Of a DNA stretch of 64,000 bases, positions 26,109-35,515 are shown in pieces. The notes under the pieces were generated by a model. The model was not told the origin of the DNA. It was given only the letters and a program-made list of their open reading frames with translations, and did no database searches. The position numbers and the translations under genes are program-made. The stretch's first letter is position 1, and each line of letters starts with the position of its first letter. Source of the stretch: Planctomycetota bacterium (GTDB taxonomy: Bacteria > Planctomycetota > Phycisphaerae > Phycisphaerales > Phycisphaeraceae); NCBI GenBank assembly GCA_021413865.1, contig JAIOPN010000007.1, positions 1 to 64,000 of the forward strand, written 5' to 3'.

Positions 26109-27635
26109 GTGATATCGACCGCAGCCGAGCCCGCCGTTCGTTTGTTCAACGATGAGCAGATGCGTCAGTTCGTCACCCACGGGTACATGGCGCTCAAGTG
26201 CACCCTCCCGCGTGAGGTGCACGAGACGATCTACAAGAAGTTCGACGAGCTGACGCTCGCCAACGGGCATGTGGGCAACAACATCCTGCCCTCCGTGCCC
26301 GAGTTGCAGATGGTGTACGACGACCCCGTAATCCGCGGCGCGCTCACGAGCGTGCTGGGCGAGGGGTACGTCATGCACCAGCACCGCTACATCCACCCAA
26401 ACCTGCCCGGCAGCCAGGGCGGCGGCTGGCATAAGGACAGCTACTGGGGCTACACGCGCAAGGTCCGCAACCACCGGCCGTGGTGGGCGATGATCATGTA
26501 CTACCCCCAGGACACACCCCTGGAGCTGGGCCCGACGGGCGTGCTCAAGGGACGGCAGCACCACATGACCCTCGCCAAGGGCGACCTCGATGGCGCGCTC
26601 CCCGTCACCGGTGAGGCGGGCACGTTCTTTATCATCCACTACGACATCTGGCACGCCGCCAACGCCAACAAGACGCAGAACCGTCGGTACATGTCGAAGT
26701 TCGAGTTCTGCCGGATGGAGTCACCCGAGGCGCTGGGCGGGCCCGCGTGGGACTGCAAGGACCGCGCGTGGCACGACCCGGACGTCTCCGACCTGCCGTG
26801 GAAGCACTGCGCTCAGTGGCGACGCGTCTGGGACTGGGCGGCGGGCAACAAGGCGGGCACGTCCGCCGGCCCCGCGCCGACGCAGCCCCTCGCGGAACTG
26901 ATCGCGCAGCTCGGTGACGCCGAGCCGCACCGCCGCAGCGAGGCCGCGGACATGATCGGCCTGATCGGGTCGGACGCGGGCAAGGCAGTCCGCAAACTCA
27001 TCGAATTGCTCGGCGACAGCTCCGACCCCGTCGGCATCAACGCCGCGTATGCGCTGGCGTCGATCGGGCGAAAGTCCGTCAAGCCGTTGATCGACGCGCT
27101 CGCTTCCGAAAGCGAACCCACACGCCGTTATGCCATGTACGCGCTGGGCGCGATGGGCACGCCGGCCGCGTCGGCGGTGCTGGATGCGACAACGTCCGCC
27201 AAATCCACCGTCCGCGCCGCAAGCGCGTTCATCCTCGGCGAGTTGCCCGGCGGCAAGGGCAAGGTCACGCCGGCGCTGGCGAAGCTGGCGGCGGACGAGG
27301 ACGTTCTCACGCGGCACTGGGCGGTTGAGGCGTTGGGCCTGCGCGGCAAGGCCAGCACCGAGGCCGTGCCCGTGCTGATCGACCGTCTCGCGGACGCCGA
27401 TGTGGACATTGCTTTCTCCACCGCGATCGCGTTGGCACGGATCGGCCCGGCCGCGAAGGAGGCGGTGCCCTCGCTGGCCAAGTGCCTCGCCGCCGAGAAC
27501 CGCTACGTCCGCGGCCACGCACTCGAAGCGCTCCACCGCATCGGCACCCACGAGGCGATCGAGACCGCGATGCACTACCTCAAATACAACCGCTGGTGCC
27601 ACACCACCACCCCCGCCAACCCGTTCTTCCCGTAA
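26109..27635 (+). CDS. Phytanoyl-CoA dioxygenase family protein fused to HEAT-like repeats (PhyH 1)
   Basis: A 508-residue protein. Residues about 10-250 are an Fe(II)/2-oxoglutarate oxygenase of the PhyH family with the canonical HxD iron motif GGGWHKDSYWG (H108, D110) and the distal histidine in HYDIWHAANANKTQNRRY. Residues about 270-490 are short alpha-helical HEAT/PBS-like repeats (SEAADMIGLIGSDAGKAV, RRYAMYALGAMG, RHWAVEALGLRG, VRGHALEALHRIG). Start at GTG 26109 is chosen because upstream codons fall in a repeat. It heads a run of five PhyH genes but differs from the other four in the iron site. Substrate unknown; a small molecule bound via the repeats is possible. Confidence 0.75.
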   Translation: MISTAAEPAVRLFNDEQMRQFVTHGYMALKCTLPREVHETIYKKFDELTLANGHVGNNILPSVPELQMVYDDPVIRGALTSVLGEGYVMHQHRYIHPNLPGSQGGGWHKDSYWGYTRKVRNHRPWWAMIMYYPQDTPLELGPTGVLKGRQHHMTLAKGDLDGALPVTGEAGTFFIIHYDIWHAANANKTQNRRYMSKFEFCRMESPEALGGPAWDCKDRAWHDPDVSDLPWKHCAQWRRVWDWAAGNKAGTSAGPAPTQPLAELIAQLGDAEPHRRSEAADMIGLIGSDAGKAVRKLIELLGDSSDPVGINAAYALASIGRKSVKPLIDALASESEPTRRYAMYALGAMGTPAASAVLDATTSAKSTVRAASAFILGELPGGKGKVTPALAKLAADEDVLTRHWAVEALGLRGKASTEAVPVLIDRLADADVDIAFSTAIALARIGPAAKEAVPSLAKCLAAENRYVRGHALEALHRIGTHEAIETAMHYLKYNRWCHTTTPANPFFP

Positions 27636-27684
27636 GCCCGTGACAATCCCGCCCACACCCCGCGCACTCACCCACAGGGAATCT

Positions 27685-28635
27685 ATGAGCGAGCAGGCTT
27701 TCACCCGTCCCTTCCCCGCGCTCACGCCCGCCCAGCGTTACAAGCTGGACGTGCTGGGCTACGTCATCATCGAGAACACGCTCACGCCCGACGAGGTCGG
27801 CGAGACGCGCGACGCCCTGCACCGCCTGCGCGCCGACCTGCGCGCCGCGATGGACCCCGAGAAGCCCACCGAGACGCGCGTGCGTGGGGCCCACTTCCGC
27901 GCCCACGGCCCGCACTACCAATACATCGCCACCATGTACGAGGCCGACCCCGCCATCACCCGCTACTGCTGCCACCCGCGCCTCGTGGGCATGGCCGAGG
28001 AGCTCATCGGCAGCCCGGCGCGCATCATCGAGACCGCCGGCATCATCAACACCCGCGACCCCAGCGTCGCCCTCAACGCGACCGGCGTGAGCTACGGCTT
28101 CCACGCCGGCACCGATATCCCCTTCGGCAGCCACACCGCCGGCAACGGCCTCTACCACTGCAACTTCGTCAAGACGCTCACCAACCTCACCGACCTCACC
28201 CCCGAGGACGGCGGCACCGTCGTCATCGCCGGCTCCCACAAAATCAACGCCGGCACCCAGGACATCATCAAGCTCGCCTACGAGGACCGCTCGCTCATCC
28301 ACCAGGTCGTCGCCCCCGCGGGCTCGACGCTCCTCTTCAGCGAGACGCTCATCCACGCCACCGGCCACCTCCGCTCCGACCTGGAACGCTGCATCATCAT
28401 CTGCGGCTACGGCCCGATGATGTTCCCCGACTGGAGCCGCGGCGACGGCCAGCACCTGCACCCCACGCCGGAGTTCGACGCCCGCGTCCCCGCCTCCATG
28501 AAGCACCTCTTCCACGGCCGGGCGCACTGGGGCCGTCAGCAGAAATACCGCACGCTCGGCCAGCCCGTGGACACCACGCCGATCCAGTGGCCCGAATGGC
28601 TCCTGGAGGGTGCCGAGGAAAAGACGCCCAGATGA
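27685..28635 (+). CDS. Phytanoyl-CoA dioxygenase family protein (PhyH 2)
   Basis: A 316-residue protein starting with the cluster signature FTRPFPALTPAQRYKLDVLGYVII. The iron-site region reads YGFHAGTDIPFGSH (H140-A-G142), followed by LTPEDGGTVVIAGSHK, the distal histidine in ETLIHATGH (H224) and a 2-oxoglutarate-type arginine (R235). By alignment by eye, the HxD aspartate is replaced by Gly. The C-terminal tail is RTLGQPVDTTPIQWP. Its last 4 bases overlap the next gene (ATGA), so the two are translationally coupled. Confidence 0.82.
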   Translation: MSEQAFTRPFPALTPAQRYKLDVLGYVIIENTLTPDEVGETRDALHRLRADLRAAMDPEKPTETRVRGAHFRAHGPHYQYIATMYEADPAITRYCCHPRLVGMAEELIGSPARIIETAGIINTRDPSVALNATGVSYGFHAGTDIPFGSHTAGNGLYHCNFVKTLTNLTDLTPEDGGTVVIAGSHKINAGTQDIIKLAYEDRSLIHQVVAPAGSTLLFSETLIHATGHLRSDLERCIIICGYGPMMFPDWSRGDGQHLHPTPEFDARVPASMKHLFHGRAHWGRQQKYRTLGQPVDTTPIQWPEWLLEGAEEKTPR

Positions 28636-29570
28636 CCGCTCCATCGCCGAAATTCGAGCGGCCCTTCCCCGCGCTCACGCCCGAGCAGCGCTACCGCTTC
28701 GAGGTGTTCGGCTATGTACTGATCGAGGACACCCTCACGCCCGACGAGGTGGCCCGCACCCGCGACGCCGCCAAACGGTTGCGTGACGAGCTGCGCTCGA
28801 AGTTCGACCCCGCGGACCCGACCAGGACGGAGGTCCGCGGCGCGCGTTTCACCAAATACACGCCGACGTATCAGCTCATCCAACAGGCGCTCGAGGCCGA
28901 GCCGGAACTGACCGCCTACGCCTGCCACCCACGGCTTGTCGGCATGTGCGAGGAACTCATCGGCGCCCAGGCGCGCATCACGCAGGTGGACGCCTTCCTC
29001 AACTCCGCCAGCGAGGCCATCCCCGCCGCCGCCGCTGACGGCAGGTACGGGTTCCACACCGGCGTGGACATCCCCTTCGGCTCGCACACCCAGAACGGCC
29101 TGTTCCACTGCAACTTCGTCAAGACCTTCACCTATCTCACCGACATCGGCCCGGACGACGGCGGGACCGTCGCCATCGTCGGCTCCCACAAGGTCAACGC
29201 CCCGATCAGGGACATCATCAACCTCGCCCACCAGAACCCCGCACTCATCCACAAGATCACCGCCCGCGCCGGCTCCACGCTGCTCTTCCCCGAAACCCTC
29301 ATCCACGCCTCGGGCCACCGCACCACGCCCGGCGAGCGCGTCACCGTCTCCGCCGGTTACGGCCCGGTGAACTACCTTGAGTGGTCGCGCGGCGACGGCA
29401 CGCCCATCCGCCTGAGCGACGGCTTCACCGCCTCCGTCCCGGCGTCGCTGCACGACCTCGTCCACGGCCGATCGCACTGGGACCGCAACCCGCGCTACCG
29501 CACGCTCGACCAACCGGCGGATACCAAACCTGTCAAGCCCGTCCCCTGGCCCCGTGACACCATGCGGTAA
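28632..29570 (+). CDS. Phytanoyl-CoA dioxygenase family protein (PhyH 3)
   Basis: A 312-residue paralogue beginning FERPFPALTPEQRYRFEVFGY. The iron-site region is YGFHTGVDIPFGSH (H132-T-G134), with DIGPDDGGTVAIVGSHK and the distal histidine in ETLIHASGH. The Asp of HxD is again Gly. The C-terminal motif is RYRTLDQPADTKPVKPVPWP. Start overlaps the stop of PhyH 2 by 4 bp. It ends 39 bp before PhyH 4. Confidence 0.82.
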   Translation: MTAPSPKFERPFPALTPEQRYRFEVFGYVLIEDTLTPDEVARTRDAAKRLRDELRSKFDPADPTRTEVRGARFTKYTPTYQLIQQALEAEPELTAYACHPRLVGMCEELIGAQARITQVDAFLNSASEAIPAAAADGRYGFHTGVDIPFGSHTQNGLFHCNFVKTFTYLTDIGPDDGGTVAIVGSHKVNAPIRDIINLAHQNPALIHKITARAGSTLLFPETLIHASGHRTTPGERVTVSAGYGPVNYLEWSRGDGTPIRLSDGFTASVPASLHDLVHGRSHWDRNPRYRTLDQPADTKPVKPVPWPRDTMR

Positions 29571-29609
29571 GCCCCGTTACATTGCACTAAACAGCCCCGG
29601 AACCCCGCC

Positions 29610-30557
29610 ATGACCGCCACCGCAACCGCACCCACACAGGCCCCCGTCGAGTTCACCAAGCCCTTCCCCGCCCTCACGCCGGCGCAGCGCTACCACCTCG
29701 ACATGTACGGCTACGTCATCATCCCCAAGCTCTTCTCCGAGAGTGAGTGCGGCGAGATGAAGGAGGCGCTCTACCGCCTGCGCTCCGACCTGGCGGGCCT
29801 GCCCAACCCCAAGACCGACAACTTCCGCGGCGCTTTCATGATGATCAACCAGCCGCACCACTGCTACATGGGCGCGGTGGTGCAGTCATACCAGCCGATC
29901 ACCGACTACGCGACGCACCCCTGCGTCGTGGGCATGTCCGAGGAACTCATCGGCGGGCGCTCGCGCATCGTCGAGGTCAACGCCCACATCAACCGCCGCG
30001 CCCCCGAGTGGCCCAAGGCCCAGGACGGCGGCCCCGCGTTCGGCTTCCACCGCGGCATCCCCGCCGGCTACGGCTGCCACTACAAGAACGGCCTCTACCA
30101 CTCCAACTTCGTCAAGGTCCTCACCAACCTCACCGACCTGGGCCCCGACGACGGCGGAACCACCGTCATCGCCGGCTCGCACAAGATCGAGGCCGACGAC
30201 AACGACATCATCAAGGCCGCCTACGAAGACCGCTCGCTCATCCACAAGATCGTCGCCCCCGCGGGCTCGGCGGTGCTCTTCACCGAGGCCCTCATGCACG
30301 CCACGGGCTTCATCAACTCCGACAAGGAGCGCGTGATCATCATCTCGGGCTACGGCGAGCCCTATTTCCCCTGGCTCCTCATGGACTCCCACCAGCCGGG
30401 CTTCGCCATGGACCCCGCCTTCCTCGAACGCATCCCCGAGCCGCTCAAGTACCTCTTCGTCAGCCGGGGCTACATCCAGCGCGCCCCGATGTACCGCACG
30501 CTCGGCCAACCCAAGGACACCCGCGAGATCAAAAAGATCGCCTGGCCAAAGGCGTGA
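29610..30557 (+). CDS. Phytanoyl-CoA dioxygenase family protein (PhyH 4)
   Basis: A 315-residue paralogue starting FTKPFPALTPAQRYHLDMYGY. The iron-site segment is FGFHRGIPAGYGCHYKNG (H147-R-G149). Here there is not even an aspartate at +4, so HxG is unmistakable. LGPDDGGTTVIAGSHK and EALMHATGF follow. The tail is MYRTLGQPKDTREIKKIAWP. A 31-bp inverted repeat lies just downstream, before PhyH 5. Confidence 0.82.
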   Translation: MTATATAPTQAPVEFTKPFPALTPAQRYHLDMYGYVIIPKLFSESECGEMKEALYRLRSDLAGLPNPKTDNFRGAFMMINQPHHCYMGAVVQSYQPITDYATHPCVVGMSEELIGGRSRIVEVNAHINRRAPEWPKAQDGGPAFGFHRGIPAGYGCHYKNGLYHSNFVKVLTNLTDLGPDDGGTTVIAGSHKIEADDNDIIKAAYEDRSLIHKIVAPAGSAVLFTEALMHATGFINSDKERVIIISGYGEPYFPWLLMDSHQPGFAMDPAFLERIPEPLKYLFVSRGYIQRAPMYRTLGQPKDTREIKKIAWPKA

Positions 30558-30563
30558 ATCTGG

Positions 30564-30679
30564 TCCCATAGCCCCGGGCTCCGCCCGGGGGTTCTTCGTT
30601 GGGTCCCCATATTTACGAAGGTTTCTCCCGCTTCGATAATCGCTCGCGGAACCCCCGGGCCGAGCCCGGGGCTATGGGA
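30564..30679. repeat. 31-bp inverted repeat between PhyH 4 and PhyH 5
   Basis: The arms 30564-30594 and 30649-30679 match as inverted copies at 30 of 31 positions. Each arm holds its own small palindrome (CCCCGGGC.CGCCCGGGG). They are separated by 54 bp. It could fold into a large hairpin that limits read-through or stabilises the upstream message, and it has the look of a dispersed repeat. Confidence 0.8.
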
Positions 30680-30693
30680 CAGAGATGCAACTG

Positions 30694-31629
30694 ATGACCA
30701 CGCCCGCCCCCACCTTCGAGAAACCCTTCCCCGCCCTCACCGCGGCGCAGCGCTACCACTTCGACCTCCACGGCTACGTCGTCGTGCCCGACACGCTCAC
30801 GCGCGATGAATGCGCCGGCCTCATCGAGGCGATGAAAAACCTCCGCCGTGACCTCCACGCCGCCAAGGCCGCCAATCCCGGCGTCGCCAAGCCCACCGTG
30901 CGCGGCGCCTTCTTCGAGATCGACTCACCCCACCACGCCTTCACCGCGAACTTCTACGAGTACGACGACCGCATGCTGGATTACGCCTGCAATCCACGCC
31001 TGGTCGCCATGGCGGAGGAGATCATGGGCTGCGAGGCCCGCCTCACCGAGATCAACGCCCACATCAACACGCGCGCCCCCGGCCCGATCGAGCCCGATCC
31101 GAAATACGGCTTCCACGCCGGCGTTGACATCAACTTCGGCAGCCACGTGGCCGGAGGCCTCTACCACTGCAACTTCGTCAAGACGCTCACTACGCTCGTC
31201 GATCTTGGTCCCGAGGACGGCGGCACCGTCGTCGTCGCCGGCTCGCACAAGATCAACACCGACCGCGACGCCATGATCGCCGCCGCCTACGAGGACCGCT
31301 CGCTCATCCACCAGTTCACCGGCACGGCCGGCTCGACGCTCCTCTTCGCCGAGACGCTCATCCACGCCACCGGCCAGGTCCGCTCCGACATCGAGCGGGC
31401 CATCATCATCGCGGGCTACGGCCCGATCATGTACCCGCGCTGGGACCTGCACATCGAGAACACGGTGGACGAGCTCCCCTTCTCCGATGCCTTCCGCAAA
31501 CGCATCCCGCCGCAGCTCCGCAACCTCCTGCTCGGCAAGCTCCACTGGAGCCGCAACGCCCGCTACCGCAAGCTCGGCTACCCGGTGGATGACATGCCAC
31601 GTAAGCCCGTCGCGTGGCCGGCGAAATAA
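30694..31629 (+). CDS. Phytanoyl-CoA dioxygenase family protein (PhyH 5)
   Basis: The paralogue starts with MTTPAPTFEKPFPALTAAQR at 30694; an in-frame ATG three codons earlier (30685) is equally possible. Iron-site region YGFHAGVDINFGSHVAGG has the HxG pattern. LGPEDGGTVVVAGSHK, ETLIHATGQ and the tail RYRKLGYPVDDMPRKPVAWP match the other three short paralogues. About 311 residues. It is the last of the run. A 25-bp palindromic repeat follows the stop, then the ATP-grasp gene. Confidence 0.82.
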   Translation: MTTPAPTFEKPFPALTAAQRYHFDLHGYVVVPDTLTRDECAGLIEAMKNLRRDLHAAKAANPGVAKPTVRGAFFEIDSPHHAFTANFYEYDDRMLDYACNPRLVAMAEEIMGCEARLTEINAHINTRAPGPIEPDPKYGFHAGVDINFGSHVAGGLYHCNFVKTLTTLVDLGPEDGGTVVVAGSHKINTDRDAMIAAAYEDRSLIHQFTGTAGSTLLFAETLIHATGQVRSDIERAIIIAGYGPIMYPRWDLHIENTVDELPFSDAFRKRIPPQLRNLLLGKLHWSRNARYRKLGYPVDDMPRKPVAWPAK

Positions 31630-31689: not shown

Positions 31690-32889
31690 ATGAAACCCCT
31701 GATCATCATCGGGGCCTCTGCGCGGGCCGCCGCCCAATCGGCGCTGCGTGCGGGCTGGTCGCCGCACTGCGTGGACCTCTTCGCCGACCGCGATCTTGCG
31801 GCGATCGCACCGGTGCGGCGGTGCCCGCTTGATCAATACCCCGACGCAATCCCCAAACTCGTCGCCGATCTCCCCGCCGGGCCCGTGCTGCTGGTGGGGG
31901 CGATGGAGAACCATCTTGAAGTCGTCGAGCAACTGGCGGAGCACCGGCCTATGCTGGGGTCATCCATCGACACGATGCGTGCCGCCCGCGACCCGTTCCG
32001 ATCGGCGGGTATGACAGCAATACCCGGGGTGCGGCCGTGCAAAGCGCTCGCCACTACGCCGACCGATCGTAATACGGCGGGTGATCACACATGGCTCGTC
32101 AAACTCCGCCGCGGCGCCGGCGGCCGGGGCATCCACCGCTGGAACGACCAACCCATCGACGAACACCACTACCTCCAGGAGTTCATCGACGGCCCGTCGA
32201 TAGCCGCCATCTTTGTTGCCGATGAGTCATCCTGCCGGCTGGTCGGCGTCACGCGTCAGCTCGTCGGCCTCGCGGGGTTCGCCGCCAGGCCGTTCCACTA
32301 CTGCGGCTCCATCGGGCCGATCTCGCTCCCCCTCGCCCTCGACACCGCACTGCAAAATCTCGGAGACGCCCTGACGCGAACACACGGCCTGCGCGGGGTG
32401 TTCGGCGTCGATGCGATCCTCGATCCGCAAAACAACATCCGCCCCGTCGAGGTCAACCCGCGCTACACCGCCAGTGTCGAAATACTCGAGCGTGCGGGTG
32501 CCCCCTCTCCCCTTGTGGGAGAGGGTGGCGAGTCCGCGAGCCGGGTGAGGGGTGGATCACCGGCAACAATGCCGTCTGTTCTCGCGGGTGACCCTCTCAC
32601 TATCCCGGACGCCACCCCTCACCCGCCGCGAGCACGCGGCACCCTCTCCCCAAAGGGAGAGGGGAAGACCCTGCATGGCAAGGCCGTCCTCTTCGCCCAC
32701 AACGCCACCGCCGCCCCCGATTTTTACCGCTGGTTCACCCCCGACGAGATCGCCGACGTGCCCGCGATCGGCGAGCCGATTCCCGCCGGGCACCCGGTCT
32801 GCACCGTTTTCGCCTCAGGGGCCGACGAGAGCAGCGTGCTGGCGGGCTTGCGTGATGCGGCGGAGCGTCTCTACACTCGGCTGCGATGA
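31690..32889 (+). CDS. ATP-grasp domain protein linked to H4MPT C1 genes
   Basis: A 399-residue ATP-grasp protein. Visible features are IIIGASARAAAQSALRAGW, the glycine-rich loop KLRRGAGGRGIHRW, LQEFIDGPS, and the metal-binding GVFGVDAILDPQ and VEVNPRYTASVE. Residues about 271-327 are encoded by an inserted palindromic repeat (32501-32665) and are low-complexity. The downstream LHGKAVLFAHN continues the conserved C-terminal part. ATP-grasp genes are common in tetrahydromethanopterin gene clusters and may help make the cofactor. The stop overlaps fhcB by 4 bp (ATGA), so the three genes form an operon. Confidence 0.72.
   Translation: MKPLIIIGASARAAAQSALRAGWSPHCVDLFADRDLAAIAPVRRCPLDQYPDAIPKLVADLPAGPVLLVGAMENHLEVVEQLAEHRPMLGSSIDTMRAARDPFRSAGMTAIPGVRPCKALATTPTDRNTAGDHTWLVKLRRGAGGRGIHRWNDQPIDEHHYLQEFIDGPSIAAIFVADESSCRLVGVTRQLVGLAGFAARPFHYCGSIGPISLPLALDTALQNLGDALTRTHGLRGVFGVDAILDPQNNIRPVEVNPRYTASVEILERAGAPSPLVGEGGESASRVRGGSPATMPSVLAGDPLTIPDATPHPPRARGTLSPKGEGKTLHGKAVLFAHNATAAPDFYRWFTPDEIADVPAIGEPIPAGHPVCTVFASGADESSVLAGLRDAAERLYTRLR
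32501..32665. repeat. Palindromic repeat inserted in frame inside the ATP-grasp gene
   Basis: The element starts CCCCCTCTCCCC...GTGGGAGAGGG (hairpin 32502-32525) and ends ACCCTCTCCCCAAAGGGAGAGGGG (32641-32665). The larger halves (about 32501-32552 and 32614-32665) are also inverted with respect to each other. The segment is 165 bp (55 codons) and keeps the reading frame. A short related palindrome, CCCCTCTCCCGCCGGGAGAG, lies at 46491-46512. Confidence 0.78.
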
Positions 32890-33857
32890 GCGGGCCCAAA
32901 CCCAGCACGGACGGCATCTCCGACGCGCTCCGCGCCGACCTGGCGATGGTGCTGCCGGAGATTCCGTGCGGCGGCGGCACGGCGATCGAGGCGATGGCCG
33001 GCCCGCTTGCCGAGGCGCTTTCCAAAGCCAAAGCACCGGTGATCGCGGGGCTAGGCACGATGTCGATCGAGGCCGTGATCCGGGCCGTGGAGTTGATGCG
33101 TGATGTGCGCGGCCGTGTGCTGCCCTGGCCGTTGACGGCGGGCACATCGCGTGGGCCGATGAGTGTGACACAAACGGCGACGCTCGGGCACGTCTTCGCC
33201 AGCGACCTTGTCATCTGGGTCGGCTGCACGGGGGCGGACGGGCCGATCGCCGAGGCTATATCATCGCATCAGTTGCGGGCCGCGCTGGCCCCGCCGACGC
33301 TTGAGGCCGTGCTCGGTCTGCGCGCGGCGCTCGCCACCAACCCCCGCGCCGAACCGATCGGGAATTGGAAACGCGTGGCCGTCGTGCTCGCGCCGGGGTG
33401 TGACGAGCGGGTCGTGAGCCAGTGGCACCGGCTGGCCGCGCATGTACAGCAGAGCGTGCGTGTGGCCGTGATCCAACTGCCCGACATCCCGTCGCGGCGG
33501 AACATACGCGGGGCGTGCGAGGTCATCACGATGCTGACCAGCCTCTCGTGCGACGCCGGCGGGGTCGATTTCGCCGACGGCACGCCGCGCCCCTGCCCCG
33601 ACGTGGCGACGCTGCTCTCGCTCAACGCGATCGACCTGCTCATCGACACAACACCGTCGCCGATCGAAGGTCTGCTGCCGCCCGCGCGGCACGTCCGGCT
33701 GAATCCCTCGGCGCTGATGGCCGTGCCCTCGGCGGCGCGGGTGATGCGCTTCGACGGCGTGATGCTGCGGCTGGCGGACGACCCGGACTCCGCCCCGCCC
33801 GACCCGGCGGCGATGCTCTTTTCCGCCGTGCGTAAACGGCTGGGGGGTGCACCATGA
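32886..33857 (+). CDS. fhcB: Formylmethanofuran dehydrogenase subunit B-like (FhcB)
   Basis: A 323-residue protein related to FwdB/FhcB. Visible features are APVIAGLGTMSIEAVIRAVEL, PLTAGTSRGPMSVTQTATLGHV, the dimer-interface-like DLVIWVGC, and HVRLNPSALMAVPSA. It is shorter than archaeal FwdB (about 430 residues). I see neither the N-terminal cysteine cluster nor the active-site cysteine region expected for a molybdopterin enzyme. This fits the bacterial Fhc complex, which is a formyl transferase/hydrolase rather than a dehydrogenase. It overlaps the genes on both sides by ATGA. Confidence 0.75.
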   Translation: MSGPKPSTDGISDALRADLAMVLPEIPCGGGTAIEAMAGPLAEALSKAKAPVIAGLGTMSIEAVIRAVELMRDVRGRVLPWPLTAGTSRGPMSVTQTATLGHVFASDLVIWVGCTGADGPIAEAISSHQLRAALAPPTLEAVLGLRAALATNPRAEPIGNWKRVAVVLAPGCDERVVSQWHRLAAHVQQSVRVAVIQLPDIPSRRNIRGACEVITMLTSLSCDAGGVDFADGTPRPCPDVATLLSLNAIDLLIDTTPSPIEGLLPPARHVRLNPSALMAVPSAARVMRFDGVMLRLADDPDSAPPDPAAMLFSAVRKRLGGAP

Positions 33858-35515
33858 CGCGATCGCTCCGCATCGCCGGGGGGAGGGTGTACGACCCGGC
33901 GAACAACATCGACGGCCGTGTCGGCGACGTACTCATTGCCGACGGTAAAGTCGTGGCCTCGCTGCCCGTGGGCACGAAACCCGAAACAATCGACGCCACC
34001 GGCTGCATCGTGATGCCCGGCGCGATCGACATGCATTGCCACATCGGCTCGCAGGCGGTGAACTACGCCCGGGCGTTGCAGACGACGCAACGCGATGCGA
34101 ACGCCGCCGCGCGGCCGGAGTGGTTCGCCGACGGCGGCGCGTCGTCCAGCGGGATCGTCCCCACGCCCGAGCAGGCGGGGATGGCGTACGCCGCCCTGGG
34201 CTACACCACCGCGATGGAGGCGGCTGTCGGGCCGATCGACGCGGGCTTCGCGCATTTACAGCTCGAACAGACGCCCAATCTCGATACGGGGTTGCTGCTT
34301 CTCCTGGCCAATCATGAACTGCTCGTCGAGCTGCTCGACCGCAACGACCGCGCCGGCGCGGCGGCGGTGGTGCAGCACCTGCTCTACATGACCGGTGCGT
34401 ACGGCATCAAGGTCGTTAACCCCGCGGGCCTCGCCGCCTGGCGGAACGACCCGGCGCACCACCACGTCAAGACCATCGACGATCGCATCACGGGAACAAG
34501 CGTCACGCCGCGGCTGATCCTCGACCTGCTCACCCAGACCGCCGACGACCTGAAGCTGCCGCACGCCACGCACGTGCACGGCAACCGCCTGGGCGAGCCG
34601 GGGAATTACCGCACGCTGATCGAGACGCTGGAGGCGATGGAGGGCCGGCGGGTGCACGTCGCGCACCTGCAGTTTTATGGCTACGGCGCGACGCCCAAGG
34701 GGCGGTTCAGCAGCGCCGCCGCCGAGCTCTGCGCCTTCCTGGCCGGGCGTGAGGATGTTTCCGCCGACGTCGGCATGGTGATGTTCGGCCCGGCGGTGAA
34801 CATTACCGCCGACACACCGCTGGAGCAGTCACTCTGGCGTCAGACCGGCACCGCGAGCCGGCCCGCGGTCTTCAGCGAGAATGACCTGGAGGCGGGCTGC
34901 GGCGTAATGCCCTCCCGCTACTCGCGGCGTAACCCGATTCACAGCCTGCAGTGGGCGATCGGCCTGGAGCTGGCGCTGCACACCGGTGACCTGCGGCGGC
35001 TGGCGCTCACCATCGACCAGCCCAACGGCGGGTCGTTCCTCAATTTCCCGCGCATCATCGCCCTACTCATGAACAAGGCGGTGCGCGACGAGGAACTCGC
35101 CCGGGCGCACCCTTATGCCACGAAGCAGTCGCGGCTCAAGTCGATCACGCGCGAGCTGACGCTGGGGGAAATTGCATTGATGACGCGCGTCGCGCCGGCC
35201 CGCATCCTGGGTTTGAAGCAGAAGGGCCACCTCGGGGCAGGCGCAGATGGGGACGTGACGGTGTACGCCGACCTGACCTCAGACCCGGAGCGTATGTTTT
35301 CCGCGCCACGCCAGGTGGTCAAGGGCGGGCGCGTCGTAGCGAAGGATGGCCGGGCCGGCGATGCCGTCACCGGCACGCGCTACCGTGCCAGGGTGGAACC
35401 CAGCGAACGGGGCGAAAAGCTGCTGCGGGACTGGTTCGGCCGCCGGGGCGGGTACGGGCTCCAGCACCTGGGGTTGACGGCTGGAGAACGGGCGAGGCTG
35501 CAATCGATCGGATAA
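33854..35515 (+). CDS. fhcA: Formylmethanofuran dehydrogenase subunit A-like hydrolase (FhcA)
   Basis: A 553-residue amidohydrolase-fold protein matching FwdA/FhcA, which hydrolyses formyl-methanofuran (or an analogue) to formate. The metal HxH is in AIDMHCHIG (H61, H63). A carboxylatable lysine lies in YGIKVVNPAG (K186), with further histidines in THVHGN and VHVAHLQFYGYG. The late VFSENDLEAGCGVMPSRY region corresponds to the catalytic aspartate segment. Start overlaps fhcB by 4 bp. The partner subunits FhcC and FhcD do not follow. Confidence 0.87.
   Translation: MTRSLRIAGGRVYDPANNIDGRVGDVLIADGKVVASLPVGTKPETIDATGCIVMPGAIDMHCHIGSQAVNYARALQTTQRDANAAARPEWFADGGASSSGIVPTPEQAGMAYAALGYTTAMEAAVGPIDAGFAHLQLEQTPNLDTGLLLLLANHELLVELLDRNDRAGAAAVVQHLLYMTGAYGIKVVNPAGLAAWRNDPAHHHVKTIDDRITGTSVTPRLILDLLTQTADDLKLPHATHVHGNRLGEPGNYRTLIETLEAMEGRRVHVAHLQFYGYGATPKGRFSSAAAELCAFLAGREDVSADVGMVMFGPAVNITADTPLEQSLWRQTGTASRPAVFSENDLEAGCGVMPSRYSRRNPIHSLQWAIGLELALHTGDLRRLALTIDQPNGGSFLNFPRIIALLMNKAVRDEELARAHPYATKQSRLKSITRELTLGEIALMTRVAPARILGLKQKGHLGAGADGDVTVYADLTSDPERMFSAPRQVVKGGRVVAKDGRAGDAVTGTRYRARVEPSERGEKLLRDWFGRRGGYGLQHLGLTAGERARLQSIG

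Follow-up and report, generated by a model that had tools for sequence, protein, structure and literature searches.

Four tandem PhyH-family proteins of a planctomycete with HxG at the iron site: kinship with HygX and a candidate relocated metal carboxylate

Five consecutive genes for PhyH-family proteins, here called g1 to g5, occupy positions 26109-31629 on the + strand of the window, that is, the whole stretch of 64,000 nucleotides of planctomycete DNA analysed here, in which all coordinates are given. An initial annotation, made from the sequence alone, had assigned all five to this family, and each indeed exceeds the Pfam PhyH (PF05721) gathering score of 22, with 33-61 bits. Its further readings of a common N-terminal signature in g2-g5 (FxxPFPALTxxQRY), of similar tails (YRxLxxPxD) and of two genes coupled by an ATGA overlap (g2 and g3) hold as well. 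Pairwise identity among g2-g5 is 41-55%, and they are assigned below to the PFPALT subfamily. The genes and their principal active-site residues are listed here; positions -4 and +11 are counted from the distal His, and +2 and +4 from the His of the first motif.

26109-27635, + strand: g1, GTG start, PhyH and four HEAT_2 stretches (Pfam PhyH 6.9e-8, HEAT_2 1.5e-33); HKD at residues 108-110 and distal His 182, a canonical triad that lies outside the HxG clade in the alignment
27685-28635, + strand: g2, PhyH, PFPALT subfamily, HAG (Pfam 9e-15)
28632-29570, + strand: g3, PhyH, PFPALT subfamily, HTG (Pfam 8.8e-15), with the ATGA overlap with g2
29610-30557, + strand: g4, PhyH, PFPALT subfamily, HRG (Pfam 3e-16)
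30685-31629, + strand: g5, PhyH, PFPALT subfamily, HAG (Pfam 1.2e-14)
28102-28110, 29055-29063, 30048-30056 and 31114-31122, + strand: HxG codons of g2 (His140-x-Gly142), g3, g4 and g5
28342-28344, 29292-29294, 30285-30287 and 31351-31353, + strand: Glu(-4) of g2 (Glu220), g3 (Glu221), g4 (Glu226) and g5 (Glu223), the proposed relocated carboxylate ligand, invariant in 40 of 40 subfamily sequences
28354-28356, 29304-29306, 30297-30299 and 31363-31365, + strand: distal His of g2 (His224), g3, g4 and g5
28387-28389, 29337-29339, 30330-30332 and 31396-31398, + strand: Arg at +11 of g2 (Arg235), g3, g4 and g5, expected to hold the carboxylate of 2-oxoglutarate (2OG)

All 108 PF05721 places of the 4.37-Mb genome were collected and aligned. 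The alignment bears out what had been read by eye: g2-g5 have Gly exactly in the column of the HxD carboxylate (HAG, HTG, HRG and HAG), and g1 has HKD. Asp occupies this column in 92 domains, Gly in 14, and Gln and Glu in one each; the first His and the distal His are found in 108 of 108 domains and the Arg in 107. The two His and the 2OG-binding Arg are thus at their aligned positions in g2-g5, and Gly stands where the first motif would have its HxD/E carboxylate. Two further HxG genes, on contig C41 (L191), lie beyond the 108 domains and were found by an HxG profile only. PhyH proteins make up roughly 3% of the genes of this genome by a rough estimate; a share above 1.9% has been reported for Poribacteria (PMC3909097), and the other planctomycetes G056, G061, G110 and G130 look similarly PhyH-rich. 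A literature search found no papers on PhyH proteins with HxG.

A profile scan of 84,980 species genomes yielded 35 loci of the PFPALT subfamily, distributed over Gemmatimonadota, Chloroflexota, Verrucomicrobiota, Latescibacterota and Planctomycetota, and the combined alignment holds 40 sequences. Invariant among them are the two metal-site His, Glu(-4), the Arg and the His of LxHxxFVK, and the Gly of HxG is present in 39; given this invariant His and near-constant Gly, HxG is not a product of chance. Completion of the triad by the Asp at +4 might be proposed from its presence in g2, g3 and g5 (three of the four proteins, rather than two as first counted) and in 23 of the 40 subfamily members. 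However, it is absent from g4 and from the other 17 members, where Arg is frequent, and no other acidic residue near HxG is conserved in the subfamily. This lack of conservation speaks against Asp +4 as the ligand, and its chances are negligible.

The acidic residue that does follow the loss of Asp lies four positions before the distal His. In this genome, -4 is Glu (14) or Asp (2) in 16 of 16 PhyH proteins lacking the HxD Asp, and among the 92 HxD proteins it is never Glu and in three cases Asp. A wider alignment of 231 rows, drawn from many genomes, combines the PhyH proteins of this genome, the subfamily loci and PhyH proteins of other planctomycetes; one locus enters it twice, as L137 and as L174, and L150 is a repeat of L135. 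Glu or Asp is found at -4 in 79 of its 83 Asp-lacking rows, His in three (the HxN proteins L182, L194 and L195) and Gly in one (L166), and an acid occurs there in 11 of the 148 HxD rows (Glu in five, Asp in six). Fisher's test without the 35 pre-selected loci gives 1e-28, a value which, since the rows are related, is no measure of independent events. Furthermore, +2 varies within the Asp-lacking clade (Q, E, H, S, T, N), whereas -4 remains Glu, Asp or His. The three HxN proteins with His, all from other planctomycetes, form a branch within the HxG clade in which this His is followed by Asp (F[ST]HD[MI]NHG), and their motifs hint at a possible natural three-His iron site.

The family tree that had been called for shows the HxG form to be part of a broad clade. 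In a 95-protein tree with Shimodaira-Hasegawa-like approximate likelihood ratio test (SH-aLRT) support, in which long branches are present and HygX is represented by its sequence from an HMMER alignment (about 20 end residues missing), 52 Asp-lacking rows including HygX form one clade with 99% support. g2-g5 belong to this clade and have both HxG and an acid at -4. HygX (4xca, 4xcb, 4zpi) is also the best match in the PDB, in single-protein searches (2.4e-10 and 1.7e-10) and with the subfamily profile; the HxG-clade profile finds it at 5e-31, the next match being EctD at 3.5e-21. Both halves of the signature can be read in HygX in the alignments, as LHGG and NEALMH (LLLNEALMHG). An AlphaFold2 model of g2, built from a 30-sequence alignment, is confident (mean predicted local distance difference test score 91, predicted template modelling score 0.90) and places Glu220 within a four-residue turn directly before the strand carrying His224. 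With this model, the first 15 Foldseek matches are HygX, and VIA-align gives HygX a Z of 20.5 at a root-mean-square deviation (rmsd) of 2.5 A, several hydroxylases tying on Z at larger rmsd. According to their PDB titles, HygX crystals contain Fe or Ni, 2OG and hygromycin B. McCulloch (2015) reportedly noted that HygX departs from the usual metal coordination, a departure to which Glu(-4) may correspond. HygX, AviO1, EvdO1 and EvdO2 are Fe/2OG oxygenases of orthosomycin biosynthesis (PMC8234114).

The loss of the classical ligand, together with the large paralogue expansion, might suggest that g2-g5 are pseudoenzymes with a non-catalytic role, one of the options raised at the outset. We regard this as very improbable, given that none of the 40 subfamily sequences, which come from five phyla, departs from the two His, the 2OG Arg or Glu(-4); in addition, the crystals of HygX bind Fe, Ni and 2OG. 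Instead, g2-g5 are likely to be HygX-like Fe(II)/2OG oxygenases in which Glu(-4) has taken over from the HxD Asp as the metal carboxylate. Of the options in the initial annotation, the takeover by another ligand is therefore the best supported, with Glu(-4) and not Asp +4 as the candidate. In such an enzyme another residue, mostly Gly, would stand at the position of the HxD Asp, and Glu(-4), or Asp in one branch and His in another, would complete the set of protein ligands from a short turn that joins two core strands. The binding of 2OG would be the usual one, with the Arg at +11 holding it, and activation of O2 would give a ferryl that removes hydrogen from the substrate, probably a sugar, aminosugar or cyclitol, the outcome being hydroxylation or oxidative cyclisation as in HygX. 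With the metal site filled by a protein carboxylate, halide binding would not be expected. We also lean, by a narrow balance, towards the broader view that a whole ancient PhyH clade, spanning five phyla and including HygX, moved its iron carboxylate to -4, with Asp and His branches; HxG would then mislead as a mark of halogenation, and the changed ligand geometry may underlie reactions such as the oxidative cyclisation of sugars.

Several observations weigh against this explanation of g2-g5. Five HxD proteins have Glu(-4) and six have Asp(-4), so that an acid in this place need not bind metal, and Glu(-4) alone is neither diagnostic nor proof of relocation. A strict one-to-one swap, with Glu(-4) appearing only on loss of Asp, looks perfect in this genome and fails in other planctomycetes on account of these five proteins. 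The rule is also broken by L166 (G090), which has HxN and Gly at -4 and thus no carboxylate in either place; going by its sequence, it is a candidate pseudoenzyme or a protein with an odd metal site. Moreover, the Asp-lacking clade is essentially of single origin, and its counts are not independent events. Finally, the substrate class, which by analogy is probably sugar- or cyclitol-like, is taken from HygX and from neighbouring genes in other genomes, not from this locus. The five HxD/Glu(-4) proteins, which point to some other role for the residue, likewise speak for a metal held by the two His only, as in AspH, with Glu(-4) in the second sphere or binding the substrate, for instance an amine; AspH works with two His ligands (PMC10947486). 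This arrangement is nevertheless unlikely, as within the Asp-lacking clade Glu(-4) is exchanged for nothing but Asp or His, both good metal ligands. The same five proteins cluster with the HxA/Glu(-4) proteins L136 and L137 at 98% support; it would seem that Asp was lost there a second time, independently, after the lineage had acquired Glu(-4).

A different use of the vacated site would be halogenation, the first option of the initial annotation. On this view g2-g5 would be SyrB2/WelO5-type radical halogenases, and the missing Asp would leave the iron site open to chloride. HxG does occur in known radical halogenases, and HXG/A serves as a genome-mining motif for them, although HXA/G searches give false positives (PMC12871659). 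A chlorinase-like HxA group is also present in other planctomycetes: L136 and L137 (in G137 and G024) are SyrB2-like, L136 scoring 151 bits against the chlorinating-enzyme model, below its cut-off of 226. However, g2-g5 gave no match to the NCBIfam chlorinating enzyme TIGR01762 at E up to 1. They have the Gly/Ala replacement of the Asp, yet at -4 they carry Glu, whereas SyrB2 and CytC3, both HxA, have a small uncharged residue there, Ser (FWSTLMH, FWSNTMH). In SyrB2, iron is bound by His116 and His235, and Ala118 makes room for chloride (PMC2767507). The distal ligand being His235, the Ser at -4 is residue 231. This Ser231 presumably touches the chloride, which would place -4 beside the vacated site, and a Glu in its stead would put a carboxylate at the halide site. 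In addition, the wider clade allows Q, E, H, N and T at +2, residues that would leave little room for a halide, and HygX, the closest relative with a solved structure and this motif, is described as an oxygenase of orthosomycin (orthoester) formation; we know of no halogenated product of the HygX pathway. Halogenation by g2-g5 is accordingly a poor prospect.

The tandem arrangement, which had suggested a multi-step pathway or linked oxygenases, is real in that the PhyH genes are consecutive, but it does not reflect recent duplication. In the tree g4 pairs with L131 of another planctomycete (72% identity) and g5 with L113 (supports 100/97 and 99/98), and g2 and g3 alone pair with each other, weakly (89/95). 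Since the closest partners of g4 and g5 thus come from other bacteria, the copies are old paralogues. The block is flanked by aldo/keto reductase (AKR) and ATP-grasp genes, with the same G+C content as its flanks. In the relatives G209 and G200, the AKR and ATP-grasp genes are adjacent and followed by fhcA, in G200 with an fhcB-like gene before it, and no PhyH lies between; in G205 the AKR gene is about 4 kb away. The PhyH block was thus probably inserted into an AKR/ATP-grasp/fhc run or added to it, and since in the relatives these genes are adjacent or near one another with no PhyH in between, proximity to C1 genes is a poor guide to function. A single multi-step pathway for the five genes remains unproven.

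Downstream, at 31690-35515, the window holds genes of the tetrahydromethanopterin C1 pathway: an ATP-grasp (MfnD-like) gene, an fhcB-like gene and fhcA (TIGR03121, 529 bits). A search of 26 genomes, this one and relatives, found fhcA in only 5. An operon with the fhc genes was considered as functional evidence, for example for oxidative demethylases feeding formaldehyde to tetrahydromethanopterin enzymes, and is unsupported, the AKR, ATP-grasp, fhcB and fhcA genes of the relatives (L225, L226 and L227) being adjacent or near one another with no PhyH in between. One further feature lies within the block:

30562-30681, no strand: inverted-repeat element of 120 bases between g4 and g5, with arms of about 32 bases that are 97% complementary

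About 40 copies of this element are scattered over the genome, the majority at full length (93 whole or half matches), and its fold z is -8.9. Its sequence resembles a miniature inverted-repeat transposable element or a repetitive extragenic palindrome. The genome has five Y1-transposase (PF01797) genes. As the element separates g5 from g1-g4, the five genes may not share one transcript. In other genomes, the genes around subfamily members include DegT/DnrJ aminotransferases (8 of 35 loci, the query locus counted), GFO/IDH/MocA oxidoreductases, xylose-isomerase-like barrels, a solute-binding protein and an aldo/keto reductase. These neighbours would fit a sugar or cyclitol substrate, although genes of these kinds occur commonly in the phyla concerned.

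If the relocated Glu holds iron, the HxG/HxA mining motif mislabels a large clade, and the residue at -4 (Ser in SyrB2 and CytC3) could serve as a second test parting oxygenases from halogenases. The clade would also offer natural facial triads rebuilt from another position, whose Glu, Asp and His variants would help in studying how the geometry of the ligands steers ferryl chemistry.

Among known systems, SyrB2 and CytC3 resemble g2-g5 in belonging to the PhyH family and in a first motif without Asp, and differ in their HxA, their Ser at -4 and the chloride on iron (PMC2767507). AspH is likewise active without the usual carboxylate (PMC10947486), but it belongs to another family, and no relocated Glu is claimed for it. 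The hydroxylases PAHX and EctD have the same fold and the same His/His/Arg set as g2-g5, but keep the HxD triad and have no acid at -4 in the alignments. The orthosomycin oxygenases AviO1, EvdO1 and EvdO2 have the PhyH fold in common with g2-g5, although EvdO2 retains HxD (WHQDEAY in the alignment). HygX of Streptomyces hygroscopicus (4xc9, 4xca, 4xcb, 4zpi) differs from g2-g5 in its location in an antibiotic cluster, in a loop after HGG that is 13 residues longer, in an identity of only about 24-29% and, compared with the PFPALT subfamily, in a Tyr at the invariant His of LxHxxFVK; it nevertheless has the PhyH fold, the PALTxxQ N-terminus, HxG and Glu(-4) in common with them, and falls in the same clade.

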